Shown in pieces: positions 755-18,988 of a stretch of 18,988 nucleotides of DNA; within the stretch, counting starts at the first letter, position 1, and each line of letters opens with the position of its first letter. The stretch comes from Candidatus Zixiibacteriota bacterium (lineage in GTDB: Bacteria; Zixibacteria; MSB-5A5; SM1-73): NCBI GenBank assembly GCA_023127875.1, contig JAGMFA010000020.1:1-18988 (forward strand). Direction: 5' to 3'. The notes beneath the pieces were generated by a model, which worked only from the letters and a program-made list of their open reading frames with translations, was not told where the DNA came from and did no database searches. A program made the translations under genes and the position numbers.

Positions 755-1087
755 TTAGCGTCTTATTCCTTTGCGAGCTAAAGCCGCCTGTGCCGCTCTG
801 GTGGCTACCTCTCTTGACACTTCGGTTATCTCCATTATCTTGTCCACCGCCTGATCCAGCCACCTAAAAAGTTCATTTTGAGGATATTTTGCTACCAGCT
901 GGTCGGTCACCTCATCAGCAATCAAAAGAACATACTCTGCCATCTTCTTTTTAAGCTCGGTGTCAAGAAAGGGAATCAGATATTTTTTGACCGCCCATCC
1001 TGAAAGCAGAAGAAGAATGGCACCTAAAGTCTGAAAAGTATTTGCCGTGACCCAATCTCCTAAAGCTGAGAATATGCTAAGGAACAT
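755..1087 (-). CDS. Holin-like small membrane protein (LLH-type)
   Basis: A 110-residue protein with one strongly hydrophobic segment at about residues 18-40, a basic turn (KKY) and then a long amphipathic helical tail of charged residues. This layout fits phage holins of the LLH/superfamily-6 type, which insert in the inner membrane and release endolysin. The start is firm: ATG at 1087 follows AAAGGAGGTG at ideal spacing, the best ribosome site in the cassette. It is the last gene of the minus-strand phage cassette, where lysis genes often sit, but no endolysin gene is present beside it. It could instead be a membrane anchor for the preceding beta-helix protein. Holin identity is inferred from size, topology and place. 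Confidence 0.6.
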   Translation of the reverse strand: MFLSIFSALGDWVTANTFQTLGAILLLLSGWAVKKYLIPFLDTELKKKMAEYVLLIADEVTDQLVAKYPQNELFRWLDQAVDKIMEITEVSREVATRAAQAALARKGIRR

Positions 1088-1463: not shown

Positions 1464-4022
1464 TTACCACTGCAATTCCCAACTTGCCTGATCCGGCACC
1501 TCGGTCTGAAGTCGTAAAATTGTCCCGGAAGGACTGAAGATGTGAAAGATATATTTGGTGTCAGAAGGACTTAAAACAGTATTGGGATACAGATCCAGAT
1601 ACCAATAGCCCTCATCGTCTGTTACCGCACTTTTATAATATGGGCTGATAACAAGGTTCTGATACCTCAAAGGAACCGTCTTTATTTGGGCTTTGATCTT
1701 TGTCCCCACCATGGGTTGATCGTTTATGTCATAAACCCAGCCATACACTCGACATAAATCCGCCTGTGGTGGCGAACCCGGATCAAACGCTTCTGCATAG
1801 TAGCTGGTATCCTCATTCTCATCTACCTTTAAAGTCTCAGGCACGGTGAATTGCCATCCTGGTTTGTATAGCCTCACGCAGTAGACTCCGTTATCCAATG
1901 CAAAGAATCCCCGACCCTGAGAATCTGAGGTCAAAAGTCCAATAGTGGAATTCTCAGTAGAGTCCAGCACCTGAATTTGAGCAAAGGCAACTGCGGAGCT
2001 GTCTGAAAAACTCATACATCTTACCACCACGCTGTTTGCTCCAGAACCGGTTCCAGAGGTCAAAGTTCTGACAGAATAATTCCAGACAAAAGATGCACCC
2101 CACTGGTTATTGTCGTTCATGGCTTTGATCAGGGAGGTGTCAACTGAGGCAGAAATCTCCTCACCCAGGCTATCCACATATTGTATTCTTCTTTCCATTT
2201 GGGGAATTATATCATCATTCCAGGTGGATCGAGCAATCGATTCCGTATCACAGGATGCGGACAAGGTCTGAGTTATGCTGTCCACTGAATCCACGAAAGC
2301 CATGCGGGTATGGCTGAAATTAACCTCTGCATCTTGATTTTTTATGTTGTTCCAGTCGGTTCGCATATAAAGCGAGCTATCACCTCTGGATAAGAGATCG
2401 GAGATGTCAGCTTTAAAATTGGCTTTGTTTGTATTAGTTATAGCATTATTTACCGAATCAACAGAGAGGTAAATATCTTCCTCAACTGTGCTGGTGGTAT
2501 CCTCTTCCCATCTTCCACTTCTCCCATGATTGGCAACGTAGGCTGTGGCATTGCTATAAAGCTCCTTGTATTCTTGCCCCACCGTCCCGGAATAAACATA
2601 ATTGTCTACGATAAAGTTGTCTCCCGATCCATCTGCAACCTCAATACCATAGCTACTTCCTTCCACGTGAATTTTGTTATTGTGGATCGTATTCCATTTG
2701 GCAGTGGTAGAAAGAATAAGAGCCTTTGTTCCAGATACAGTGCGAAGACTATCTATGATATTGTTGTAAACTAAATTATAGTCTCCCTGGATGCTTATGC
2801 AAAAACCCCACTGTGTATGAAAGAAATTATTATATATTCGACCATAGTGTGAATCACCAAATGCTAATATGCCATCGCCCATGTGACTTGTGTTGTTTTT
2901 GATTCTATTGTCATGGATATTGAAATGACTGCTATTATTGATCCAAATTCCATCATTTCCTCCGGCAAGCTCAAAACCGGTTATTTCTATTCCATTAGCT
3001 TCAATTCGCATAACCGGTTTCCCAGAAACACCCGACAAAAACGTGAGTCCCCTTCCAGCCCCCATCCAATGCACATTGGCAACATCAGTGGTGCAACTAG
3101 TGGAGCTATAAATCCCCGGAGCTACGTAAATGTAATATTCATCCGCCCCAGAACATTTTCTCTCGGCAATCTCCAAAGAGTCAACTGCACCATCCCAACT
3201 TAGACCAGAACTGTCACTGTGTCCGTTTGTGGAGACGAAAATGTTTTTGCGATTAAGCTGTGGTTCTATAAATTGTCCTATAACGGTTACATCCGCTTTG
3301 AAATCGTCCCTGTGGACATACATTGTATCATAATTTCTGTGAGCAATGTCTTCAAGGTTACTTGCAAGGATCACATCATCAATCCCTGCTTGAAAAGGAT
3401 TGGTATTTGTATCCCCAATGGCGGGGCGATTAGCTAATTGATTTACAATGTCAAAAGTATTGGTATCTCCAGAAGATTGATATGCCGGAGGATTCGCCGT
3501 CATCACTGAATCAGATGTAGGATCGAAAGTTGAAAGACCAGAAATGTCAGCTTTAAAATTGGCTTTGTTGGTGCTGGTGATGGCGTTGGTTAAAGAATCA
3601 AAGGTCTCCACCACAGTCCAGGACCAGGTCTTAATGTCCGTATAAGAGCCGTCAAATTTATATGCCACCACTTTGGCTATGTAGTTTCCGGTGTGATTGG
3701 ATGCATCTGAAGCTTTGATGTTGGTGGAGTAAAAGCCGGACTCCACGGATGAGGTTAGCTTTTTTGTCCCCACATAAGTCCATCCCCCATCCAGCCACCA
3801 CCATTTGATTCTCACCGAATCGCAGTCCTGAACAGAATCTGAGCCTATGCTTACCGTTCCTATGGTGAGCGGAACGCTGTCGGAAGGAGCATAATAATCT
3901 GCCCAAGCGACAGCAGACAGTGAAGAGCTTACAGCTAACAGCAGACAGCTTACAATTAACAGCTTATAGCCAACAGCTATCAGCTTATAGCTTTCAACTA
4001 ACAGCCTCAGTCTCAATCTCAT
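1464..4022 (-). CDS. Secreted parallel beta-helix, tail-spike-like protein
   Basis: An 852-residue protein. Residues 1-41 form a signal peptide (arginine-rich start, hydrophobic core, likely cut after AVAWA). About 270-480 is a right-handed parallel beta-helix of the PbH1 kind, with recurring Asn/Asp-rich turns such as NIHDNRI, YNNFFH and IHNNKIH, typical of tail spikes and polysaccharide-active proteins. Two beta-sandwich regions follow (about 665-730 and 755-835), the second like a carboxypeptidase regulatory domain (VYGWVYDINDQPMVGT). The motif NKANFKADIS occurs near residues 150 and 530, in front of each half, with a weaker FKADVT near 240. The start is fixed by GGAGG nine nt before ATG, and ATGA overlaps the upstream stop, so the two are probably translationally coupled. 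It is probably a receptor-binding or surface-adhesion protein. A signal peptide is odd for a phage tail protein. Confidence 0.8.
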   Translation of the reverse strand: MRLRLRLLVESYKLIAVGYKLLIVSCLLLAVSSSLSAVAWADYYAPSDSVPLTIGTVSIGSDSVQDCDSVRIKWWWLDGGWTYVGTKKLTSSVESGFYSTNIKASDASNHTGNYIAKVVAYKFDGSYTDIKTWSWTVVETFDSLTNAITSTNKANFKADISGLSTFDPTSDSVMTANPPAYQSSGDTNTFDIVNQLANRPAIGDTNTNPFQAGIDDVILASNLEDIAHRNYDTMYVHRDDFKADVTVIGQFIEPQLNRKNIFVSTNGHSDSSGLSWDGAVDSLEIAERKCSGADEYYIYVAPGIYSSTSCTTDVANVHWMGAGRGLTFLSGVSGKPVMRIEANGIEITGFELAGGNDGIWINNSSHFNIHDNRIKNNTSHMGDGILAFGDSHYGRIYNNFFHTQWGFCISIQGDYNLVYNNIIDSLRTVSGTKALILSTTAKWNTIHNNKIHVEGSSYGIEVADGSGDNFIVDNYVYSGTVGQEYKELYSNATAYVANHGRSGRWEEDTTSTVEEDIYLSVDSVNNAITNTNKANFKADISDLLSRGDSSLYMRTDWNNIKNQDAEVNFSHTRMAFVDSVDSITQTLSASCDTESIARSTWNDDIIPQMERRIQYVDSLGEEISASVDTSLIKAMNDNNQWGASFVWNYSVRTLTSGTGSGANSVVVRCMSFSDSSAVAFAQIQVLDSTENSTIGLLTSDSQGRGFFALDNGVYCVRLYKPGWQFTVPETLKVDENEDTSYYAEAFDPGSPPQADLCRVYGWVYDINDQPMVGTKIKAQIKTVPLRYQNLVISPYYKSAVTDDEGYWYLDLYPNTVLSPSDTKYIFHIFSPSGTILRLQTEVPDQASWELQW
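3917..4010 (-). repeat. AGCTTACAGC-type iteron cluster inside the signal peptide
   Basis: A run of imperfect direct repeats built on AGCTTACAGCTAACAGC and AGCTTATAGC units. It overlaps the codons for residues about 5-36 of the beta-helix protein and so encodes most of the signal peptide (segments such as KLIAVGYKLLIVS). Such iterons are usually intergenic; here one lies inside the reading frame. Confidence 0.65.
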
Positions 4023-4642
4023 CTTATGATTCCTCCTTCAATTATGCCCGCATCAATTTCAATGATTCCTTTGGTTCCTTCTTCCGTGGTGTAGTGCATT
4101 CGCATGGTGTAACGGTTGGAGTTATGACCGGTGTAGCTTCCCCAGGGATTGGGAAATGTGTCAGCATACGTCTGTCCTGACTTCCACTCATGGGAGTTAG
4201 TAGGTCCCCCAGCTACATAACACATCTCCTCGGAAGCGCTGGTTTTGAAGGCAAACCAATAGTAAGCATCCCCGGTTATCTGGATGGTGGTCACATCCTC
4301 TCCACACCAAACTCCCCCCGAATAGGTGATATCTGTCCCTTCCCATAGTTTATTTTCAGGACGACCATTGTCGTCATCGTAGACTGCCATCCGGAAGGTG
4401 GATCCTTTAGTAGAGGTCCAGGTACGTATTTCCAGGCGGGTGGAAGTCCCATCCTCTGGAGCCTGAAATCTCTGCGCATCAGCATAGCCGGTGGAGAAGT
4501 TCCAATGTAAGGGACAACTGTCTAGTCCGAACCAGGCGGCAGGCACAGGAAAATTCAAAACGAAAAATGAAAAAAGCAAAATGAAAATAGCGAATGACGA
4601 ATGATTGATGACGAATGAATAATGCATTTTTAACTTTATCAT
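4019..4642 (-). CDS. Secreted beta-sandwich protein of the phage cassette
   Basis: The frame is open from 4729 (ATG overlapping the upstream stop), but no ribosome site precedes that codon and the first 29 residues are translated repeat. I prefer ATG at 4642, which has GGAG nine nt upstream and gives 207 residues beginning MIKLKMHYS. A signal peptide covers about residues 1-34 with a core of AIFILLFSFFVLNF. The mature part (AQRFQAPEDGTSTRLEIRT, then MAVYDDDNGRPENKLWEGT) resembles extracellular beta-sandwich modules that carry a 'RLGIYDDNGGxPGxLL'-like strand, found in surface and carbohydrate-binding proteins. The stop overlaps the start of the beta-helix gene, so both are probably made together, perhaps as a base and spike. 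Exact function unknown. Confidence 0.65.
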   Translation of the reverse strand: MIKLKMHYSFVINHSSFAIFILLFSFFVLNFPVPAAWFGLDSCPLHWNFSTGYADAQRFQAPEDGTSTRLEIRTWTSTKGSTFRMAVYDDDNGRPENKLWEGTDITYSGGVWCGEDVTTIQITGDAYYWFAFKTSASEEMCYVAGGPTNSHEWKSGQTYADTFPNPWGSYTGHNSNRYTMRMHYTTEEGTKGIIEIDAGIIEGGIIR

Positions 4643-4745
4643 ATCTTTGCTCTCCATTACGAATGAGGATTCATCCTGAAGGAATGATTGATGACGAATG
4701 AATAATGAATGCAATTCGTCATTCTTCATCCGTCATTCGTCATTG
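4555..4745 (-). repeat. ATGACGAATGA iteron cluster
   Basis: Degenerate direct repeats of ATGACGAATGA/ATTGATGACGAATG units, in two blocks (about 4555-4624 and 4672-4745) separated by the ribosome site and start codon at 4642. The sequence ATTCATCCTGAAGGA inside it recurs at the end of the small membrane-protein gene (14177-14191). The repeats overlap the 3' end of the 92-residue gene (TMTNDG tail) and the signal-peptide codons of the next one. Confidence 0.65.
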
Positions 4746-5004
4746 TTTTATTCAGTTCCTCTTTCCTCAACTGATCTATCAACTCCCAGAATATCTTTTC
4801 TGCTTCAGAGGTTTGAGCCAGCTTCTGTTTCAATTGAATCGCCCTCAGCGCATCCTGCACCTTTGGCTCAAAGCCGTTTTTCTCCAGTTTTTCAATGAAT
4901 TTGTTAATCAACATCTCCAGAAGCCGTAGATCCGATATCTGTTGATTGTTAGCTTTTTTGGGAATAGATTTTTTTCTGATTTTCTTCTTGATTTTTCTTT
5001 TCAC
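4726..5004 (-). CDS. Small basic coiled-coil protein, unknown function
   Basis: A 92-residue protein with a very basic N-terminus (KRKIKKKIRKKS, residues 2-13) followed by helical, charged sequence from about residue 22 to 85. It starts at GTG (5004), with AAAGGA about 12 nt upstream, a weak site. The basic tail could bind nucleic acid or membrane, and the helical body suggests an oligomer. It lies between structural genes and overlaps the longer frame of the next gene by ATGA. A small-terminase or minor head role is possible, but nothing specific supports it. The last residues come from the ATGACGAATGA iterons. Confidence 0.6.
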   Translation of the reverse strand: MKRKIKKKIRKKSIPKKANNQQISDLRLLEMLINKFIEKLEKNGFEPKVQDALRAIQLKQKLAQTSEAEKIFWELIDQLRKEELNKTMTNDG

Positions 5005-5179: not shown

Positions 5180-5212
5180 TTAAACTTTGAACTTTGAACC
5201 CTAAACGCTTTT
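5180..5212 (-). repeat. TTTGAAC iterons
   Basis: TTAAACTTTGAACTTTGAAC followed by CCTAAACGCTTTT, ending at the stop codon of the 123-residue gene. Same family as 6651-6686, 11124-11155 and 13666-13722. The CTAAACGCTTT end recurs at 6671-6685 and, changed, near 1385-1396. Confidence 0.6.
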
Positions 5213-5582
5213 ATCCCATTTCCACAATCATCAAATCCACCAGTCCGGTCTTCTCAAATCCGGAAAATTTTGCGATCCTGAAACCGGTGTCAGTTTCTGT
5301 TCCGACCACAAAACAGTTGACCTCATTTTTGGACAAAACTACCACCTTGGGACTTTTGAGCATCTCCGGGAGTTGATTCCCTTTGAAATCATAAAGGTTG
5401 GAGAAACTAACCATCTGATCTAAACCACCAAGGTTGTTTTTTGCCAGCATCACTCTTTTAGAGGTTTCGCCCATTTCGGTGTAGAGGAGAAGGAAAGATG
5501 CCAAAGACCAATCTCCCCACACCACGAAATTAGGCACCACCCAGGTTCTTCTTCCTCGGAGATAATCTAACGTAATGTTCAT
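5211..5582 (-). CDS. Unknown small cassette protein (123 aa)
   Basis: The start at ATG 5582 has only a weak purine-rich site (AGAAAGAGAG) upstream. The sequence is a mix of short hydrophobic strands and loops with a compact C-terminal part (KVVVLSKNEVNCFVVGTET, then a FRIAKFSGFEKTGLVDLMIVEMG-like end), so a small beta-rich globular domain is likely. There is no signal peptide and no membrane segment. It lies between the connector-like gene and the coiled-coil protein, so a minor virion or tail-completion role fits the position. I do not recognise the family. Confidence 0.6.
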   Translation of the reverse strand: MNITLDYLRGRRTWVVPNFVVWGDWSLASFLLLYTEMGETSKRVMLAKNNLGGLDQMVSFSNLYDFKGNQLPEMLKSPKVVVLSKNEVNCFVVGTETDTGFRIAKFSGFEKTGLVDLMIVEMG

Positions 5583-5761: not shown

Positions 5762-6607
5762 TCAATTACTCGATTTTGCGGCATAAGGCGAACAAAAACC
5801 TCCGGGGTCTTTTTTGAATCTTTTCAAAAGCTCGTATGCTCGCTCCCGGTAAGTGGTAGACATTCTTGACCATGCTAAAGATAGAGAGTGAGCCTGCCAT
5901 CCAGCGCCGGCGGCTACGTTTTGGGTCATCGCCTCGATGGCTTTGATGTTGCTCAATATGGAAACGGCCAAATAGGTCTCCGCAGTTACCAGAGATTGAT
6001 CAGTGGAGTTGGCATAGGAGGAATCGATGTATTTAAGAATCTGGTCGTTGGCTTCATTTATGGCGTTTTTGATGACCTCATCACCTAAAAGGGCAAACTC
6101 CACCCTATAATCCACCAGAACCCATTGACCATCCTCAATATCTCCGGTGGCCAGTCTTTTTATCTGTCCTTTAGTGTAATCAATTTCATAATCGGTATCT
6201 TTGGGATATATGCGGAAGTAGAGATACCAGATAACCACAGAAGATGTCGGTGGGATAGATCCACTTGGGATCAGAACTATCCTTCCATCATCATAGTCAA
6301 TGGAATAGTCCACGTTCTCCACATAGATTTCCCCCAGGGATGAATCGTTTGCCACCACCACGGTATCCGGTATGAGCTCTGGATGTGCCAGTTGCACTGC
6401 GTCCGAGGAAGCAAAGCTTATACTCTCCTGGGTGGGAGCGTTCTGCTCCTTTGCCTTCACCTTCTCCGAACCTATTAGAATCAAAACATGAGGAAGCTGA
6501 AACGGTGTTTCTCCTTCCAGACGGCAGGCTACATTTTCTTTGCTGACCGTACCAAGTTCGTGCTCTAAGATATGCTTTTTGACCAAATCCATGTTTGTAA
6601 ATGCCAT
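5762..6607 (-). CDS. Probable phage head-completion/connector protein
   Basis: A 281-residue soluble protein. ATG at 6607 follows AAGGA with good spacing. Residues about 90-170 hold two tandem beta units with the same phrase, VDYSIDYDDGRI (about 99-110) and TDYEIDYTKGQI (about 138-149), as in head-tail or baseplate proteins that assemble as rings. Residues about 172-265 are helical with several aromatic and charged positions (INEANDQILKYI, SRMSTTYRERAYELLKRF), resembling connector or adaptor helical bundles. It has no signal peptide, unlike the downstream fibre genes. Following the capsid and propeller genes, it probably helps join head to tail or tail to fibre. The family is not certain. Confidence 0.6.
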   Translation of the reverse strand: MAFTNMDLVKKHILEHELGTVSKENVACRLEGETPFQLPHVLILIGSEKVKAKEQNAPTQESISFASSDAVQLAHPELIPDTVVVANDSSLGEIYVENVDYSIDYDDGRIVLIPSGSIPPTSSVVIWYLYFRIYPKDTDYEIDYTKGQIKRLATGDIEDGQWVLVDYRVEFALLGDEVIKNAINEANDQILKYIDSSYANSTDQSLVTAETYLAVSILSNIKAIEAMTQNVAAGAGWQAHSLSLAWSRMSTTYRERAYELLKRFKKDPGGFCSPYAAKSSN

Positions 6608-6650: not shown

Positions 6651-6686
6651 CTTAAACTTTGAACCTTAAACCTTAAACGCTTTTTT
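6651..6686 (-). repeat. TTTGAAC/CCTTAAA iterons
   Basis: CTTAAACTTTGAACCTTAAA and a second CCTTAAACGCTTTTTT unit fill the gap before the connector-like gene and touch the stop codon of the propeller gene. Same family as 5180-5212. Confidence 0.6.
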
Positions 6687-8109
6687 ATTTTATCACCTTC
6701 AGATACTTTGCCTCCGGCACCGCGGTGATCTGAGTCCCTACCGGAGTGGTGGCAAAAGCTGTGGTGACCAGAATCCTTAACCAGAATTCGGAGACACCAT
6801 TCACCGGACACCTTTGCCAATCTAAGGGAACCGAATTCAAATCCTGCCACAAGATGACCGTCTTATCCTGAGAGTCCAGATGATAACTACCGGATTGGGG
6901 GACAAAATCAGACCAACTCTCTCCATTGAAATATTGCCACTTCACCTCACCCCCGATCCCCGCGGTGGACAAAATGATTTTTGTTAGGTTGAATTTGACG
7001 TCCATCCCTACGTAGAAGGCATCATCGGTATCCTTGACCAATCCTCCGGAAGTGGGATGAAATACATCTGCGGGTGTTGAATCGGATGCTTGGGTGGTTC
7101 GGTCGGAATATTTGGTGACTGCAGAATCATCGTAACAGAAGACTTTATCGAAAGGTTTCTGTCCTGGCTCAAAAGAGAGGGGTGATACAAATGACGAGCC
7201 ATCCTTATAGGAATAAAAGAGCTGATTCTGCCCGGTGCCGATGTTTTTGGCAAAGAAAACATAGGGGATGTTATCCAGAAATTTTATGGCCAAAGAAAGA
7301 GGGGTGTTGTTGTCCACGGTGAACACCCCACTCCAGTTGTTTCCATCATACTCCTTATATAGAAGGGAGGACGTTCCAGGGAATACAATTCCCACTTTAT
7401 TGTCTGAAGATAGATCTGCACAGAAATTATCATCTATGGTAGAGCCGGAATAGATGGTCTGTTGTGAATCCCATCCGGCGGCTTGTAGCTCATGCGAGCG
7501 ATAAGCCAAAAGGGTGGAATCATCCGAATAGAAACAATGGATGTAGGGTGATTGAAAAAGCAGTTGGGAATAGCAAGAGCTGGTGCCGTTAGTCAAACAT
7601 GTTCCCGGATCAGATGGACCGGTTCCCCAGGTGGCTCCATCATCTTGTGAATTCTTGGCATGCACAAAGTATCTTTCGGTTCCAGAATCGTAATAGGTCC
7701 AGGACACCCACAGTCGACCGAGGGAATCTTTGGTGATGCTGGGGAAATAATTCTCTCCCACATTGCATACGGTATTGACCGTTCCTAAGCTCCAACTGCC
7801 CTGGGAAAAGCTCATCTTCAGCTCAAGCAGATTCAGGCTAATCTGCTGGGTATACACCACATAGATATTCCCGTCTGAGTCCATATAGGCGGAGGGTGGA
7901 TAATCCGCGCTGTCTGTAGCAATGTCTGTTGGATCCGACCAGCTAAGGTAAGGAGGATCAGACCATACATACACCAATTGACTGGGCGTCTTGGGATAGA
8001 TGATGATCACCCGATCCAAATACTGTCCGAAAGAGACTTTGAATATCTTAGCCTGCGGTTGAATGCCGGTGGCATAGAATGAGCTGATTGTGTCGATTAA
8101 TTTCTGCAT
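6685..8109 (-). CDS. Asp-box beta-propeller with tail/baseplate-like C-terminal domain
   Basis: A 474-residue protein. Residues about 20-330 read as propeller blades with repeated 'DSxGxxxVxW' phrases (PPSAYMDSDGNIYVVY, PSITKDSLGRLWVSW), and an Asp-box, SQDDGATW, at 154-161, the signature of sialidase/BNR propellers. The acidic and arginine catalytic set of a sialidase cannot be recognised, so binding is more likely than hydrolysis. Residues about 375-455 form a separate domain (KWQYFNGESWSDF, then FWLRILVTTAF and PVGTQITAV) that I associate with phage baseplate or tail proteins. ATG at 8109 has only a poor ribosome site. There is no signal peptide. It probably recognises surface sugars as part of a tail or capsid-attached fibre. 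Confidence 0.7.
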   Translation of the reverse strand: MQKLIDTISSFYATGIQPQAKIFKVSFGQYLDRVIIIYPKTPSQLVYVWSDPPYLSWSDPTDIATDSADYPPSAYMDSDGNIYVVYTQQISLNLLELKMSFSQGSWSLGTVNTVCNVGENYFPSITKDSLGRLWVSWTYYDSGTERYFVHAKNSQDDGATWGTGPSDPGTCLTNGTSSCYSQLLFQSPYIHCFYSDDSTLLAYRSHELQAAGWDSQQTIYSGSTIDDNFCADLSSDNKVGIVFPGTSSLLYKEYDGNNWSGVFTVDNNTPLSLAIKFLDNIPYVFFAKNIGTGQNQLFYSYKDGSSFVSPLSFEPGQKPFDKVFCYDDSAVTKYSDRTTQASDSTPADVFHPTSGGLVKDTDDAFYVGMDVKFNLTKIILSTAGIGGEVKWQYFNGESWSDFVPQSGSYHLDSQDKTVILWQDLNSVPLDWQRCPVNGVSEFWLRILVTTAFATTPVGTQITAVPEAKYLKVIK

Positions 8110-8207: not shown

Positions 8208-9317
8208 TTATGTCCAGACCGTATCCAGAACTAAAGCCGCCTCCTTGATCACCTTGGCATAAGCCACTGATTCGGATATGACCGCCTCCTCTAACTTCTG
8301 CTCAATCACCTTATCATACTCCACCATCAAAGGCTGGCTTACCACCTCCTCGATGGCAAAGCGGTTGTCCATTCCGATCACCAGATCGGAGGAAACATCG
8401 TCACACCGCACCAGGCTTGATCCCAAGGGAGATACTAAATCGCCGGTCTTCTGGAACTTAAATCCGGCCATGGGATCTTTGAACTTTTCCATAGTAAGGA
8501 TGGTCTTTATCAGGTCCTTGTGGCACAGGATGGTGTTCATCTCAAAGGGGAAGAATTCATTCCACAAGGCGATAAGATCAGCATAGGTGAAGCTCCCGGA
8601 TGTGGCGGTGTTTATCACCGTGGCAGAGTTGTCATTTCCGTCTCCGTTAATGATGGTATCCACCACCAGTGCCATTTTGTCCGCTTGAAGTCTGAATCCA
8701 ATATACCACAGAAGAACCCTGAACTGGGCGGTGGTGCGATGCCTTAAGGCTTTGTAAGAGGTCTTCAGGGTTATCCCATAATCCGGCACGGTGATAGAGT
8801 GTAGTTGTTCTGCCACCGTCAAGGTGGGAATCTCCGCTGAGTCACCGATGGGTCGCAGTGAAAGCTTTGACTGATCAGGGGTGACGTTAACGTAGAAGGG
8901 GGTATAGCGGGAGGAGGAGATCATACTGGTGCTGGCTATAAGCTTATCCAGTTCCGGTCGCATCTTCTGTCCTCTCTTTATCTCCCTCATCATGAACTCA
9001 GGAAGAAGCGCTGGGGCACCCTGATAGAAAAGCTCCACCGTGACAGGATTTTTTCCTCCCACTCTTATGTCATGCACTGCTAACTGTCGCTCAAAAGCAT
9101 CCAGAGGGGAGTTTACGTCACTGGGATCGTATTCCTTCTGCTCCAGAAGTTCAGATAAGGTCACGCCCCGGGATTGTGCCTCCAGGTAAATTTCCTTAGT
9201 GATTTTGATCTCCTTTGCTCTGGTAACATCCACCTGTCCAGAGACGGGTCTCTCCCCGCTGGCTAATTCCAAAAGCTTCTTTCCTTCAGCCGAGTTTAAC
9301 AATTTTTCCAAATCCAT
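8208..9317 (-). CDS. Phage major capsid protein, HK97 fold
   Basis: A 369-residue protein from ATG at 9317, which has AAGGAGAG seven nt upstream. The frame extends to a TTG at 9335, but that codon has no ribosome site. The order of elements fits the HK97 fold: helical N-terminal arm (about 1-95), extended strand with long spine helix, P-domain, then an A-domain with a late segment LVIGMDNRFAIEEVV followed by QPLMVEYDKVIEQKLEEAVI and a final helix-strand. That end is typical of tailed-phage and encapsulin-type shells. Around it lie a prohead protease, a decoration-like protein and a connector-like protein, as in head modules. A separate scaffold gene is not obvious; the charged N-terminal arm may act as scaffold and be removed by the protease. 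An encapsulin is less likely, because of the protease. Confidence 0.85.
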   Translation of the reverse strand: MDLEKLLNSAEGKKLLELASGERPVSGQVDVTRAKEIKITKEIYLEAQSRGVTLSELLEQKEYDPSDVNSPLDAFERQLAVHDIRVGGKNPVTVELFYQGAPALLPEFMMREIKRGQKMRPELDKLIASTSMISSSRYTPFYVNVTPDQSKLSLRPIGDSAEIPTLTVAEQLHSITVPDYGITLKTSYKALRHRTTAQFRVLLWYIGFRLQADKMALVVDTIINGDGNDNSATVINTATSGSFTYADLIALWNEFFPFEMNTILCHKDLIKTILTMEKFKDPMAGFKFQKTGDLVSPLGSSLVRCDDVSSDLVIGMDNRFAIEEVVSQPLMVEYDKVIEQKLEEAVISESVAYAKVIKEAALVLDTVWT

Positions 9318-9338
9318 GTTTTCTCTCCTTTTCAAAAT

Positions 9339-9393: not shown

Positions 9394-9816
9394 TCAGTTC
9401 AGAATCAACGTGCATTCTGTGGTTCCATTCACCGAGATGACCGTTCCTCTGGCGATATTTCCACCAGCGGGATCGTAACCCGTCAATGCGGGAGCCTGTT
9501 TGACGGTTCCACTGGCACCGCCCACCACTCGATCTCCTACCTGGGGATAGGTGGTGGTAATGGGACCTGTCATCACTCCACCAATCTGCACGGTAGCCAC
9601 CCTTTTCCCATCATCTGAGTCGGTTAAAGTAAGATCGATCAATTTCCCCAGAAAAACTGAGCCATCCGTGGTGGGTCCCACCTCATTGTTTCCGGAAAGC
9701 GTTACCGCCTTACCTATGTCTGCGTCTTTTAGATCATCCACTTCGCCGGTTTGCTTGATGGAGAAGGTGGCAAAGGTCGCTCCGGTGGCTTCCAAGTTTT
9801 GATCTCTAATCCCCAT
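9394..9816 (-). CDS. Probable phage head decoration protein
   Basis: A 140-residue, beta-rich, Gly/Thr/Val-rich protein without signal or membrane segments. ATG at 9816 follows AGAAGGAGGAAA, a strong ribosome site suited to a protein needed in many copies. The phrases GKAVTLSGNNEVG, GKLIDLTLTDSDDGKRVATV and QVGDRVVGGASGTVKQAP resemble small capsid-stabilising proteins of the HK97-phage type (head decoration or DUF2190-like), which bind the outer capsid surface. It comes directly before the major capsid gene, the usual place for this role. Family assignment is by pattern and position only. Confidence 0.65.
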   Translation of the reverse strand: MGIRDQNLEATGATFATFSIKQTGEVDDLKDADIGKAVTLSGNNEVGPTTDGSVFLGKLIDLTLTDSDDGKRVATVQIGGVMTGPITTTYPQVGDRVVGGASGTVKQAPALTGYDPAGGNIARGTVISVNGTTECTLILN

Positions 9817-10231: not shown

Positions 10232-10651
10232 TTATATTTTCATTCCCGTTTTGAACTCTGAAATCCTGAAATTAGATTCTCCGTGGTCGACCATCACCCT
10301 AAATTGAGGTGAAGAGGTAAAGCTTTGATTAAATTCTTCCTTTACTTTTTCTCTCAAAAAGATGAGGTCTTCAAAACTCAAATTCGGGGATGACAAAAGC
10401 TTTTCCACCAGCCCACAGGAATTTAACTCTCCCTTCACCCGAGAAACAGCTAAAGCCATCTTTTTGATCTCTGATTTGAATTCGCAAAAGAGCTTTTCAC
10501 AGAATCTTTCCTTTTCAGAAAGCGAGCCTAAAGCACAGGCTGCCTTGCTCAAATCCTTTTCCAGTTGGTCAAAATCCATCTTCTGGATCATCTCATCACC
10601 GATGGCATTCCGATGCTCCTTCAAGGATTCGATCAGATTTTGAATGTTCAT
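10232..10651 (-). CDS. Helical cassette protein, unknown function (139 aa)
   Basis: ATG at 10651 has GAGGT seven nt upstream. The protein is almost all helix and rich in Lys/Glu, with Cys at about 39, 51, 56 and 79, and a short beta-like end (FRVMVDHGESNFRISEFKTGMKI). There is no signal or membrane segment. Its place between the protease fusion and the decoration and capsid genes is where scaffold genes often lie, and a charged helical protein would fit that, but no family is recognised. A separate intracellular role cannot be excluded, because 415 bp of repeats divide it from the capsid pair. Confidence 0.55.
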   Translation of the reverse strand: MNIQNLIESLKEHRNAIGDEMIQKMDFDQLEKDLSKAACALGSLSEKERFCEKLFCEFKSEIKKMALAVSRVKGELNSCGLVEKLLSSPNLSFEDLIFLREKVKEEFNQSFTSSPQFRVMVDHGESNFRISEFKTGMKI

Positions 10652-10808: not shown

Positions 10809-11123
10809 TTATTTCTTATCCATCCCAAACGGGCTGTTCATCTCCGAAAGTTGAAATTCAATTCTATTTAATCGATTTTGTAAATCCTGGCTGAATTGGT
10901 GAAATTCCTCTTTGGTCAAAAAATTCTGATTTAGAATCACCTCTATGTTGGACAATCTTTTATCCAACTGATTCACCACGACAGATTCCGCCTTCTGGGA
11001 AAGATCTAACTTTATTCCCGCAATGGTGGTGTAGTAAGCGGTGATGATTCCCAAAGCGGTCACAAAGAAAGCCACCAGAAATTGTAACAACTGCACCTTA
11101 GAAAAAAACTTGTTGTTCTCCAT
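10809..11123 (-). CDS. Small membrane protein with coiled coil
   Basis: A 104-residue protein with one membrane segment at about 12-37 (LLQFLVAFFVTALGIITAYY) and a polar helical tail (about 48-95) with heptad-like spacing (LDKRLSNIEVILNQNF, then LQNRLNRIEFQLSEM). This layout resembles small phage membrane proteins of the XhlA/hemolysin kind that work with holins, and also some bacterial coiled-coil anchors. The start at ATG 11123 lacks a clear ribosome site; the upstream DNA is TTTAAC/GTTCAACC iterons. It sits between the ligase fusion and the head genes, away from the holin-like gene. Role not certain. Confidence 0.6.
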   Translation of the reverse strand: MENNKFFSKVQLLQFLVAFFVTALGIITAYYTTIAGIKLDLSQKAESVVVNQLDKRLSNIEVILNQNFLTKEEFHQFSQDLQNRLNRIEFQLSEMNSPFGMDKK

Positions 11124-11212
11124 AACATTAAACTTTTAACGTTCAACCTTAAATGTCTCTCATCCGTTTAATCCGTTTTATCCGTTGACCCATCCGTTCC
11201 ATCCGTTGACCG
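11124..11212 (-). repeat. TTTAAC iterons followed by ATCCGTTT iterons
   Basis: Two iteron families side by side: TTAAACTTTTAACGTTCAACC (split across about 11127-11150) and then five ATCCGTTT/ATCCGTTGACC units (11161-11212). The second block overlaps the 3' end of the ligase gene and encodes its last residues (STDGTDGSTDKTD). The ATCCGTT family recurs at 15358-15430 and 17190-17262. Confidence 0.65.
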
Positions 11213-13531
11213 TTTCCAGAACAGCCATCTATCTTTCCCCTTCAGCCTAACCTTTCTCACCAGATAGATTCCATTCAGAACTTTCCCTTCAATTTTGAAA
11301 CTGGAGAAGTCCGTTTTTCTCTCCAGGATACGATATTTTCCTTTGTCCAGAATTTTCATGTGTGCCACAAGATTCTTTGAAGGATTTCCTTCCGTCCCGC
11401 CTTCTTCCGGAGGTATATCTCCCTCGAACTCCATCCATTTGGGATCATGATAATCTTTCCATTCACATAAAAATCTTTTCCCCCGATTCAACCCATCCAG
11501 ATCCAGCTCAAAAATGGTTAAACCGATTGCGACCTTCCCCTTCTGGAATCTCAGATCATGATGTTTTGCCTTTCCCCACCAATGAAGCTGAAGCACAAAT
11601 CTGTCCACCGACCGCCGTCCTTCGACTTCGCTCAGGACAAGTCCACTGTCCACCGCTTCAGGATTTTTTGTGGCGGTCGGCGGACGGCCGACAGCGGACT
11701 TTTTCTCGTCGATCATCCTCTCCAAAACTGAGATCGGATCCGGCTCTTTTCTATCCGATCTCTTGTCCAGAACCCGGGGAGCATACCAGGTGAAACGATC
11801 ATCCACTCTGGTTACATAATCAACTCTAACCCTGATTATGTCTCCGGGCTTTGCTTGAATGGAGGTGGAATAGGTGCTTCCCACAGGGATGGGATTTGCT
11901 TTTGTTCCGACAGCGCAGGTGTAGTTATAACTGCCCCCTTTATTCTTCTCCACCCCCATCACCAAAACATCCAACTCAAAATATCTTTTCCATTTATACC
12001 AGCTTTCTTCATCAAAATAACCGGAACCGGTCTTTTTGATCATCGCCCCTTCGGAGGTGGCAATACCTTTGATTTTTGAAAGTAAATTACTCGAAAGGAT
12101 TCGTTCATATTTAACTTTCTGAATGAAATTGGTGTCCTGAAAGAGGTCCTCTAAAAGCTTCTTTCTTTGCTCAAGTGGGAAAGAAGTCCTGTCCTCTCCA
12201 TTCAGATAAAGCAGATCAAAAAGTTTGAATCTGAAATGAGAATCATCCGGAGCTTCATTTCTTTTTGAGGAAGATCCGTCAGGTTTTTGGTGAATGTATC
12301 CCCCCACATCTTTATGTGATAGACGCGAATTCCCTTTGTATTTCACCAGCTCCCCGTCCAGTATGAAGTTTCTTTGGGGATTCGATAGAATGTCTTTTAC
12401 CAGATGAGGGAATTTCTGTTCAATCCGGTTCCCTTCGTCCGTGCAGATTCTAACCTCTTCTTTTTTTCTATGTATCTGTACTCTGACTCCGTCATATTTG
12501 GGCTCTATTAAAAATTCGCCGGAAAGGGTAGAGAGGTCTTCCAAATGAAAAATTTCATTTGAACTCGAACTAGATTTCTTTGGTTTGGTAGGAGGGATGA
12601 ATATGAATGGTGTCACCTTAGGTGGCTTTTCGCTTACGTCTTGCACGAAGTGAACTCTGGATCGTAAGCTGGTGGGCAGTGCCCCTAAAACCAGCACCTC
12701 CAAATGGGGAGGACAGACTAAATCCACGTCATGATCTGAATAACCTTTGTCCAGAACGCCGCCCACCAACTTTACTTTATCAGAAAGCCCTGCCCGCTTG
12801 AGCGCTTTTTCCACTACGTCTCCATAAATTCTGCCTGAGTTTGAACGTGAGCCGGAATCTAAATCCCCGCATCTTTTTTCTGAGTTGCGCTTCTGGTATA
12901 GCCACAGCTCATCAGACATGGAGGTATTGGGCACTGCCCCACGATAAACCAAAGATGTTTCCAGCACCCGAGTGATATTTCGATAATTAAAGTACGCCAC
13001 TCTTTCTTCCTTGACCCTTGCCCCTTGACCCTTCTCTGTCTGGTAGGATTTAAATGGAACGTGGTGGCATCTTCTCATATCCTCGCCGCAGATGGAGCAT
13101 TGAGGAAACTCAAAGAGAAATCCTAAGGAACATTCCTTATAGATTCCATGGTCAATGTTTTCCTTCAGAGAAGAAGCATCCTTAGCGCTTTTCAGCCAGT
13201 AGAACCATACCTTCAACCAGTTTTTCCCGTCTTTTTGCGCCACCTCCGCTTTGAAGTTTCTGGCGATGGGGAGTTTCTCTTTGGTGTGTCCCACCATTAC
13301 CGGGGAGTCGATCACTAAGTTGGCGATGTTGAAAAGTTCTTCTAAAGGAAAGCGACCACCATAGGAGTTCACCTCATCTGAGACCAAAAACATGGTTCGG
13401 ACGAAGATATCGTCTTTGGCTACTGGCTTGGGAGGTTTAATTCGTGAGTTGATTAAAAAGACTATCTCATCGGATATCTCCGCCTCCGGCCTCTTTAGCT
13501 CTGCCCCTACGTATGCTAATAGTTCTTCCAC
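11168..13531 (-). CDS. Fusion: prohead protease, nucleotidyltransferase-like, ATP-dependent DNA ligase, LigD-type phosphoesterase
   Basis: A 787-residue protein starting at GTG 13531 with AGGAG six nt upstream. Residues about 40-205 look like a phage prohead protease (XkdF/U35 type): His82 in PVMVGHTKEKLP, Ser135 in YKECSLGF, a Cys145-Cys148-Cys155-His156 zinc-like knuckle, then ETSLVYRGAVPN. Residues about 235-300 carry the nucleotidyltransferase-fold phrase GGVLDKGYSDHDVDLV. Residues about 335-595 are an ATP-dependent DNA ligase: motif I EPKYDGVR (Lys345 would take AMP), FILDGELV, LFDLLYLNG, EGAMIKK (494-500), WYKWKRY, then an OB-fold. Residues about 644-775 match the LigD 3'-phosphoesterase (QLHWWGKAKHHDLRF: His650, His657/658, Asp659, Arg661). 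The linker at about 614-644 is translated repeat. It is the first gene of the cassette. The product would mature capsids and also heal and seal DNA ends; whether the parts are separated by self-cleavage is unknown. Confidence 0.85.
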   Translation of the reverse strand: MEELLAYVGAELKRPEAEISDEIVFLINSRIKPPKPVAKDDIFVRTMFLVSDEVNSYGGRFPLEELFNIANLVIDSPVMVGHTKEKLPIARNFKAEVAQKDGKNWLKVWFYWLKSAKDASSLKENIDHGIYKECSLGFLFEFPQCSICGEDMRRCHHVPFKSYQTEKGQGARVKEERVAYFNYRNITRVLETSLVYRGAVPNTSMSDELWLYQKRNSEKRCGDLDSGSRSNSGRIYGDVVEKALKRAGLSDKVKLVGGVLDKGYSDHDVDLVCPPHLEVLVLGALPTSLRSRVHFVQDVSEKPPKVTPFIFIPPTKPKKSSSSSNEIFHLEDLSTLSGEFLIEPKYDGVRVQIHRKKEEVRICTDEGNRIEQKFPHLVKDILSNPQRNFILDGELVKYKGNSRLSHKDVGGYIHQKPDGSSSKRNEAPDDSHFRFKLFDLLYLNGEDRTSFPLEQRKKLLEDLFQDTNFIQKVKYERILSSNLLSKIKGIATSEGAMIKKTGSGYFDEESWYKWKRYFELDVLVMGVEKNKGGSYNYTCAVGTKANPIPVGSTYSTSIQAKPGDIIRVRVDYVTRVDDRFTWYAPRVLDKRSDRKEPDPISVLERMIDEKKSAVGRPPTATKNPEAVDSGLVLSEVEGRRSVDRFVLQLHWWGKAKHHDLRFQKGKVAIGLTIFELDLDGLNRGKRFLCEWKDYHDPKWMEFEGDIPPEEGGTEGNPSKNLVAHMKILDKGKYRILERKTDFSSFKIEGKVLNGIYLVRKVRLKGKDRWLFWKRSTDGTDGSTDKTD
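11598..11704. repeat. GTCCGCC/TTCGACTTCGCTCAGGA repeats inside the ligase gene
   Basis: A compound repeat lying in frame within the coding region. It has GTCCACCGACCGCCGTCC, the widespread palindrome-like TTCGACTTCGCTCAGGACAA, GTCCACTGTCCACCGC, and then GGCGGTCGGCGGACGG. Translated on the minus strand it gives the linker with LVLSEVEG between the ligase and phosphoesterase domains. The GTCCACCG parts match the intergenic elements at 8124-8203 and 9339-9392. The length is a whole number of codons, so the frame is kept. Confidence 0.75.
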
Positions 13532-17348: not shown

Positions 17349-18988
17349 ATGTGCAAGAGCAAAAGTTTTATCCTTTTTATCCTGATCGTTTTGTTCTCCT
17401 TTCCCGCTTTGTGTTTTGCCCAATCCGACTCGGTCATCGCCACCATCTGGCTGCCGGATGAGTTAGGAGGAGTGGCTAATCCTTGTGCCTTTACGTACAA
17501 CTCCATTAACAACAAAATCTATGTTTGTGGGGGTGAAAGGGTTGTAGTTATAGACGGTGCAACCAATCAAAGGGTAGCTGGCATTACAGTCGGGAAAGAT
17601 GCAAACGCATTAGCCTACAATCCCACCAACAACAAAATCTACTGCGCCAATTATGGGAGTGACAACGTCACCATCATTGATGGAGCAGGTGATTCAGTAA
17701 TAGCCACAGTGGAGGTGGGGGATGAGCCCTGTGCTTTGGTCTACTGTGACACTAGCAACACAATCTACTGTGCTAATCGTTTGAGTGACAACCTCACCAT
17801 AATTGATGGAGAACTTAATTCGGTGATAGCCACAGTGGAGGTGGGAGAAGAGCCTGTGGCTTTAGCCTACAATCCCATCGACAACAAAATCTACTGTGCC
17901 AATTGTATTGGTGACTCCGTTTCCATCATTGACGGAGCAAGTGATTCGGTGATAACCACAGTCGGGGTGGGAAATGCCCCTCGTGCTTTAGCCTACAATT
18001 CCACCACCAACAAAATCTACTGCGCCAATTTTCGGAGTGGCAACGTCACCATCATTGATGGAGCCGGTGATACAGTGAGAACCACAGTGGAAGTGGAACA
18101 TTATCCCTGTGGTTTCGTCTACAATTCGACCAACAACAAGATATACTGCACCCTTCTGGAAAGCGATAGCGTCGCCATCATCGGCGGTCACGTCACAGTA
18201 ATCGATGGTGGAACTGATACGGTAATAACCACACTGCAACAGGTGGGATACCTCCCTCATGCCTTAGCCTACAATTGCGAGAACAACAAAACCTACTGCG
18301 CTTTCTCCGGACCTAATCCGGAAAGTGATAGTGTGGCCATCATTGATGGGGCAGATGATACGGTGATAACCATTGTGGCGGTGGGGTATGAGCCTGTGGC
18401 TTTGGCCTACAATCCCACCAACAACAAAATCTACTGCGCCAATGCGTCCAGTGCCAACGTCACTATCATTGATGGAGCAAATGATTCGGTCGTGGGCACG
18501 GTAATGGTAGGGGAGGGGCGCTCTACTTTAACCTACAATTCCGAAAACAGCCAAATTTACTGCGCCAATGAGTTCAATGCTAATGTTATTGTCATTGACG
18601 GAGCAGGGGATACAGTGACAAATAGGATGGGGACGGGAGATAGTTCTTATGCTTTAGTGTATAACCTAAAAAACAATAAAGTCTACTGTGCCAATCGGGG
18701 AAATGACAGCGTGACCATCATTGATGGAGCAAGTAATACGGTGAAAGCCACAGTGGGGGTGGACGACGAGCCTTGTGCTTTGGCCTACAATGACAGTAGC
18801 AACAAAATCTACTGCGCCAATTGGGGAAGTAACACTGTCACCGTCATTGACGGAGGAGGTGATACAGTGAGAGCGACAGTGCCGGTGGGTGAGGAGCCTT
18901 GTGCTTTGGCATACAATGGCATCAGCAACAAAGTCTACTGTGCCAATATGAATAGTGACAACGTGACCATCATTGATGGAGAAGGTGA
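17349..18988 (+). CDS. Secreted YVTN-type beta-propeller protein (3' end beyond window)
   Basis: The frame is open from ATG 17349 to the window edge, 546 complete codons. AGAGGT lies five to ten nt upstream. Residues 1-25 are a signal peptide (LFILIVLFSFPALCFA). The rest is about twelve repeats, mostly 42 residues, of the form AYNPTNNKIYCAN, GSDNVTIIDGA, DSVIATVEVG, EPCAL. Starts of the KIYC motif are spaced 120, 126, 126, 126, 126, 150, 138, 126, 126, 126 and 126 nt. These are blades of the YVTN (surface-layer/NHL-like) propeller. Nearly every blade has Cys where the classic motif has Val (YCAN instead of YVTN). Propellers of this type are secreted or surface-bound binding domains. A C-terminal sorting domain may lie past the edge. 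Blade DNA is very similar throughout, which suggests recent expansion. Confidence 0.85.
   Translation, partial: MCKSKSFILFILIVLFSFPALCFAQSDSVIATIWLPDELGGVANPCAFTYNSINNKIYVCGGERVVVIDGATNQRVAGITVGKDANALAYNPTNNKIYCANYGSDNVTIIDGAGDSVIATVEVGDEPCALVYCDTSNTIYCANRLSDNLTIIDGELNSVIATVEVGEEPVALAYNPIDNKIYCANCIGDSVSIIDGASDSVITTVGVGNAPRALAYNSTTNKIYCANFRSGNVTIIDGAGDTVRTTVEVEHYPCGFVYNSTNNKIYCTLLESDSVAIIGGHVTVIDGGTDTVITTLQQVGYLPHALAYNCENNKTYCAFSGPNPESDSVAIIDGADDTVITIVAVGYEPVALAYNPTNNKIYCANASSANVTIIDGANDSVVGTVMVGEGRSTLTYNSENSQIYCANEFNANVIVIDGAGDTVTNRMGTGDSSYALVYNLKNNKVYCANRGNDSVTIIDGASNTVKATVGVDDEPCALAYNDSSNKIYCANWGSNTVTVIDGGGDTVRATVPVGEEPCALAYNGISNKVYCANMNSDNVTIIDGEG

Follow-up and report, generated by a model that had tools for sequence, protein, structure and literature searches.

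We analyzed an 18,988-nucleotide stretch of DNA from a Candidatus Zixiibacteriota bacterium (positions 1 to 18,988 of contig JAGMFA010000020.1, assembly GCA_023127875.1; hereafter the window), which carries a cluster of phage-type head genes. Among them is a single 787-residue frame in which a head maturation protease, a nucleotidyltransferase (NTase)-like segment, an ATP-dependent DNA ligase and a LigD-type phosphoesterase (PE) follow one another in that order. An earlier note on this DNA had described the four-module chain, and protein searches confirmed it: the window chain has 372 relatives in a search of 5.8 billion proteins, and among the 120 of these that were listed, many align over 98-99% of its length at 51-82% identity. 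All 12 listed relatives that bear an organism name are from Zixibacteria, as are all 13 loci traced to named genomes, each a metagenome-assembled genome (MAG).

The fused gene and its cluster

We assign the first domain to the head maturation proteases on the basis of phage homologues, synteny and invariant His/Ser residues; its PHROG family match is weak, and a profile of the domain retrieved nothing from PDB sequences. The domain also contains a C-x2-C-x6-C-x-H site (Cys145-His157), and the viral proteases L001 and L002 carry comparable Cys/His sites. Enterococcus phage fHoEfm07 and Flavonifractor phage Cormatin have a similar domain before the capsid gene, but there the proteases are annotated as separate proteins of 378 and 230 codons, without a ligase.

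Minimal nucleotidyltransferases combine a GG/GS...DxD motif with a third acidic residue. The NTase-like segment has the first of these motifs only, and aligns collinearly with a protein of the ANMV-1 virus, described below. Its PDB matches were weak and mostly to enterovirus VP1; we took them as chance, so the PDB lends the segment no support. ATP-dependent DNA ligases are recognized by motifs I, III, IV and V, with a catalytic lysine, and this set is complete in the window protein. Scores of the ligase part are higher against archaeal and LIG1-type ligases than against LigD, and structure comparison with both models gave match lists filled by ligases. All seven ligase residues that we chose are kept in 84 of the 112 proteins that reach the ligase. 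The ratio of nonsynonymous to synonymous substitution rates (dN/dS) is 0.11-0.18 for the ligase core in 4 of 15 pairs, the ones not saturated, and 0.06-0.16 for the PE in 5 of 15 pairs. In LigD, the 3'-phosphoesterase residues given in the excerpted account are Gln40, His42, His48, Asp50, Arg52, His84 and Tyr88, the last being essential (PMC8656161). Six of these seven have counterparts at matching places in the window protein, as placed by eye from motifs. In the window protein, and in most of its close relatives, the NTase-like/ligase/PE module looks catalytically complete.

The linker that joins ligase to PE, a low-confidence stretch at window 11603-11685 (residues ~616-643), has as its coding DNA a short, imperfect inverted repeat with 14-nucleotide arms that are 93% complementary, and the length of the linker differs among relatives. 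A repeat pattern sought in the linker had two inexact matches, a count equalled by 18 of 200 shuffles, and was rejected.

Table 1. Features of the window, with residue positions in the 787-residue chain. Counts out of 59 refer to cluster proteins with relatives in 58 genomes plus the window.
Feature	Position	Strand	Residues or match	Relatives
Fused gene, 787 residues: head protease, NTase-like segment, ATP-dependent DNA ligase, PE	11168..13531	minus		
Head maturation protease domain, residues 1-205	12917..13531	minus	His82, Ser135	
NTase-like segment, residues 236-300	12632..12826	minus	GG..SDHDVDL	in 70/108 proteins
ATP-dependent DNA ligase (nucleotidyltransferase + OB), residues 328-610	11702..12550	minus	Lys345 in KYDG	
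LigD-type 3'-phosphoesterase domain, residues 643-773	11213..11605	minus	Q648, H650, H657, D659, R661, H695; W699	
Small protein with membrane-like stretch and coiled coil (by eye)	10809..11123	minus		53/59
Helical protein (by eye), possibly a scaffold	10232..10651	minus		58/59
Virion structural (decoration-like) protein	9394..9816	minus	phrog_4588, 2.4e-8	59/59
Major head protein	8208..9335	minus	phrog_3922, 5.9e-66	
474-residue protein, propeller-like by eye	6685..8109	minus		54/59
281-residue protein	5762..6607	minus	PHROG tail/Ig-like match, 7e-9	52/59
123-residue conserved cluster protein	5211..5582	minus		50/59
92-residue conserved cluster protein	4726..5004	minus		49/59
852-residue protein with NosD-like part and signal-like start (by eye)	1464..4022	minus	4.7e-9 (NosD-like part)	44/59
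110-residue membrane-like protein (by eye)	755..1087	minus		29/59

Downstream of the protease gene come the small membrane-like, helical, decoration-like and major head proteins, then further conserved proteins (Table 1). The window itself showed neither portal nor terminase; in one related locus that we scanned, they lie upstream of the protease gene (portal, phrog_3753, 2.5e-35; large terminase, TerL, phrog_2, 8.6e-30). The gene order is common to the longer of the 13 named-genome loci, with insertions in three (L010-L012). Genes flanking one locus (L006) are of host type, encoding Lon-like, MscS and M48 peptidase proteins, and the same gene clusters recur in L007. Other flanking families, scanned by one member each, are lipoyl synthase (in 14 other genomes), an HD-domain response regulator (25) and an M50 peptidase (20).

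By eye, two cluster proteins (window 1464-4022 and 4019-4729) have signal-peptide-like starts; export of phage structural proteins is unusual. For the 4019-4729 protein, none of the other 58 locus sets examined contains a relative. Adjoining the cluster at 17349-18986 is an open-ended gene of YNCE-like beta-propeller repeats, and similar genes lie beside the cluster in L009.

Distribution and inheritance of the head locus

Across 132 Zixibacteria genomes, the protease domain is found in 118 (119 matches; G102 matches only in the ligase), terminase in 114 (115 matches; a match in G042 at 1.7e-4 was excluded), portal in 112 and major capsid in 111. Each is mostly single-copy, allowing for a few second matches and for matches split where contigs end. 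All four occur together in 94 genomes, at least three in 116 and at least one in 123. As an rpoB domain was itself found in just 122 of the same 132 genomes, most absences of head genes may come from incomplete assemblies.

Portal, terminase, protease and capsid keep the same order on the same strand in 53 of 56 genomes having all four, a sample in which most loci were picked for having the four genes on one contig. This synteny upholds the placing of the protease gene in a head module, as the earlier note had it. In the terminases, a set with a few partial frames, all 53 sequences readable at Walker A have the same motif, the DE pair is likewise invariant (56 of 56), and each of the three nuclease aspartates is present wherever it can be read (55 of 55, 54 of 54 and 53 of 53). 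On the G006 chromosome, portal and TerL lie ~1.3 Mb away from protease and capsid. In G039 (contig C1, L118), the capsid appears as two partial matches ~0.6 Mb apart (1725307-1725753 and 2322220-2323002), owing to either rearrangement or misassembly. In 28 genomes, the 20 kb around the cluster contain no tyrosine integrase, read from coordinates as far as the contigs extend; the closest, in G011 and G055, are ~26-28 kb away. Ku matched none of the 132 genomes, and classic Ku-LigD end joining is therefore less likely.

We compared gene trees with that of a single marker, rpoB, over 49 genomes, counting shared splits out of 46 and correlating distances. The capsid tree shares 37 splits (r 0.89), the portal tree 32 (r 0.89) and the terminase tree 30 (r 0.83), while a concatenate of the four head genes shares 38 (r 0.92); the maximum r in 500 permutations was 0.25. 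We also built trees that set 27 chosen Zixibacteria entries (fewer for portal) beside up to 8 virus sequences; in them the Zixibacteria group together, separately from the viruses, at modest support for protease (0.70) and capsid (0.73) and with no value for portal. The head-module setting given in the earlier note stands, but the locus is nearly universal, mostly single-copy and congruent with rpoB, and we read it as a vertically inherited resident of Zixibacteria, not an ordinary phage, which the note had not foreseen.

Related chains in viruses

Searches of IMG/VR and INPHARED with the window protein yielded partial relatives only, and no INPHARED record covers more than 80% of the chain. 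A plasmid search gave 356 partially matching records, none above 80%, of which the 8 listed are annotated as cisplatin damage response ligases, and a DNA-level search of the cluster against phages gave no match. IMG/VR scans with protease and capsid alignments recovered three virus contigs that bear protease-ligase chains: L258 (922 residues), L259 (913 residues, on a 79-kb contig) and L176 (1229 residues, on a 55-kb contig). Thus, the earlier note's statement that no described phage has this arrangement agrees with INPHARED, but virus contigs do carry the protease-ligase part of it.

As in the Zixibacteria loci, relatives of portal and capsid lie on the same contigs as these chains. In L258 and L259 the portal precedes the chain and the capsid follows (in L259, phrog_3753 at 6.8e-39 and phrog_3922 at 2.6e-74); in L176 the capsid gene adjoins the chain, and the portal and terminase genes lie at other places on that contig. 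The motif-I lysine is present in all three ligases. Unlike the window chain, these proteins are 913-1229 residues long and have zinc-ribbon-like linkers. By eye, the PE is degenerate or absent in L258 and L259, and in L176, whose order is protease-ligase-NTase-PE, the ligase is followed by a GS..HDIDI motif of NTase type and by a PE that has the His/Asp set. A protein search with L258 and L259 gave 15 matches, 4 of them full-length, one of which is L259's own. A further entry, L257, is the protease alone.

An 11-kb Zixibacteria-type head cluster (L177/L175, IMGVR_UViG_3300027896_005586), comprising portal, terminase, a 607-residue protease with a pseudo-ligase, and capsid, is also listed as a virus in IMG/VR. 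Since this is a Zixibacteria-type locus, an IMG/VR listing is not proof of a virus.

The ANMV-1 virus, an archaeal virus, encodes an 866-residue ATP-dependent DNA ligase (KP703175) that is collinear with the NTase-like, ligase and PE modules of the window chain (hhalign E 1.9e-30). Its gene is similarly set, between portal and head-morphogenesis genes: a gene annotated as a MutT-like phage hydrolase (KP703175 1913-3193) matches portal family phrog_146 at 2e-30, and the next gene has a head-morphogenesis match at its end (phrog_4728, 2.5e-5). The ANMV-1 chain differs in that no protease domain was found in it, and an IMG/VR scan with this protein found no relative. Together, ANMV-1 and the IMG/VR relatives place ligase-PE modules with head genes in several virus groups. 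From these comparisons, the protease-ligase fusion is probably older than the Zixibacteria locus.

A proposed domesticated head locus with a DNA-healing module

Gene transfer agents (GTAs) are defined, in the excerpted text of PMC9662315, by caudoviricete-derived proteins, full endogenisation (often at several loci), mostly vertical inheritance with co-diversification with the host, packaging of mostly random host DNA, a locus that is not fully packageable, and delivery of DNA to other cells. Three of these six features are seen here: the PHROG matches of portal, TerL and major head protein; endogenisation, with one or more of the genes in 123 of 132 genomes and two sites in G006; and tree agreement with rpoB. 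We therefore call the locus GTA-like rather than a GTA. Like RcGTA, FpGTA and other GTAs, it is a compact, endogenised and inherited phage-derived head and packaging locus; unlike them, it is phylum-wide and its head protease is fused to a ligase and PE. The sections of PMC12946183 on the GTA candidate FpGTA of Faecalibacterium describe an FpGTA I of ~10 kb, similar in size to the Zixibacteria locus, with genes split over two operons and particles without identifiable tails that contain ~9 kb of DNA. The chain also resembles bacterial LigD in joining ligase and PE, but LigD works with Ku and has up to three domains (POL, PE and LIG), whereas the window chain has no polymerase-domain match and Ku had no match in our genome sample.

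Our preferred interpretation, on which we are about evenly divided, is that the gene encodes the head-maturation protease of a phage-derived, domesticated, GTA-like head and packaging locus with a DNA-healing module, passed on vertically in Zixibacteria. The protease domain would carry the chain into the procapsid, which would place the NTase-like/ligase/PE module in, or keep it at, the particle being filled with DNA. There, most likely, ligase and PE would mend 3' ends and close nicks in the chromosomal DNA during its packaging by the terminase, by analogy with T4, which requires ligase for encapsidation according to the excerpts of PMC10893049. This presumes that particles form, contain host DNA and hold the module inside. 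More tentatively, we suggest a phylum-old GTA whose protease brings an end-healing, nick-sealing enzyme that repairs damaged chromosomal DNA during packaging or delivery, its module drawn from a wider head-associated NTase-ligase-PE group in phages and archaeal viruses that is itself undescribed.

Several observations weigh against this interpretation. The earlier note had inferred a DNA-sealing ligase; this fits the window protein and the chains that keep all seven residues, but Lys345 is substituted in 20 of 121 proteins, some of them 60-70% identical to the window's, and, in the motif I column read by eye, the catalytic lysine is missing in 16 of 16 sampled proteins from other Zixibacteria lineages. 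Some relatives have a chain without the ligase, and the essential Tyr88 of the PE is Trp699 in the window protein. No small terminase was identified, with one sub-threshold Pfam match and no dedicated search. Six rpoB-bearing genomes have none of the four head genes, and G022 (contig C1, L068), whose cluster lies on a 2.12-Mb contig, has portal, protease and capsid, with no terminase match found; this locus is perhaps decaying. The tree of the short protease domain agrees less with rpoB (21 splits, r 0.64). A tape-measure family occurs in just 9 of the 132 genomes, leaving DNA delivery unexplained; as the family is also missed in all four IMG/VR records with such clusters, its absence is weak evidence for a missing tail. 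Lastly, in the T4 in vitro work excerpted from PMC10893049, 500-bp nicked DNA was packaged equally to intact DNA, and shorter nicked DNA less.

The ligase fold is still recognizable in the 16 lysine-less proteins, and as the lysine is replaced or absent in many relatives, ligation is not the sole use of the domain. These pseudo-ligases point to a second, non-catalytic role; where the lysine is lost, the domain probably does no more than bind DNA or give the protein its shape. Taken further, the C-terminal module might be mainly a structural, DNA-binding or scaffold-like extension of the protease, with ligation incidental or a relic, and some phage proteases do carry scaffold parts. We consider this somewhat unlikely, given the retention of the chosen ligase residues in most proteins, the low dN/dS where measurable, and the recurrence of ligase, PE and NTase-like part beside head genes on other virus genomes.

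The same chain architecture would also suit a module that stays in the completed particle and works in the recipient cell, sealing, circularizing or end-joining delivered DNA, much as the earlier note proposed in its second idea, and a self-contained end-processing enzyme could matter in genomes without a Ku match. However, head proteases usually exit or are degraded after maturation, and the locus persists where the ligase is lost or has no lysine; we think this unlikely.

Encapsulins are shells without phage packaging genes. A capsid shell co-opted for other use, such as an encapsulin-like nanocompartment that keeps packaging genes for assembly only, would accommodate the exported-looking and membrane-like cluster proteins (by eye) and the lack of a tape-measure match in 123 of 132 genomes. 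It is improbable, as the locus retains portal and TerL and the terminase motor and nuclease residues are invariant where readable. Capsid-forming phage-inducible chromosomal islands (cf-PICIs) are mobile satellites with an integrase, a patchy distribution and a packaging set without tail genes. The Zixibacteria locus resembles them in having a packaging set without recognized tail genes, and one such locus, L177, is listed as a virus. Nevertheless, an active prophage or cf-PICI-like satellite in many genomes is very improbable for a near-universal, mostly single-copy and rpoB-congruent locus with no tyrosine integrase within 20 kb in the 28 genomes surveyed, as far as their contigs reach, which groups apart from phages in the protease, capsid and portal trees, if at modest support. 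That an assembly or frame artefact joined separate genes, as the earlier note had allowed, is hardly credible: we found no evidence for it, many independent contigs and MAGs carry full-length relatives, which rules it out, and none of the loci examined has protease and ligase as separate genes.

Among open-licence PMC articles, we found none dealing with this locus or fusion, with GTAs, prophages, capsids or particles in Zixibacteria, or with a ligase linked to a head protease or GTA, and studied GTAs come predominantly from Alphaproteobacteria, in the account excerpted from PMC12946183. If the GTA-like interpretation holds, DNA repair would be physically part of a capsid maturation enzyme, and a phylum known here only from MAGs would have a phylum-wide GTA-like system, suggesting a route of gene exchange within Zixibacteria. 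A single locus would then also span a natural gradation between active ligase and pseudo-ligase.
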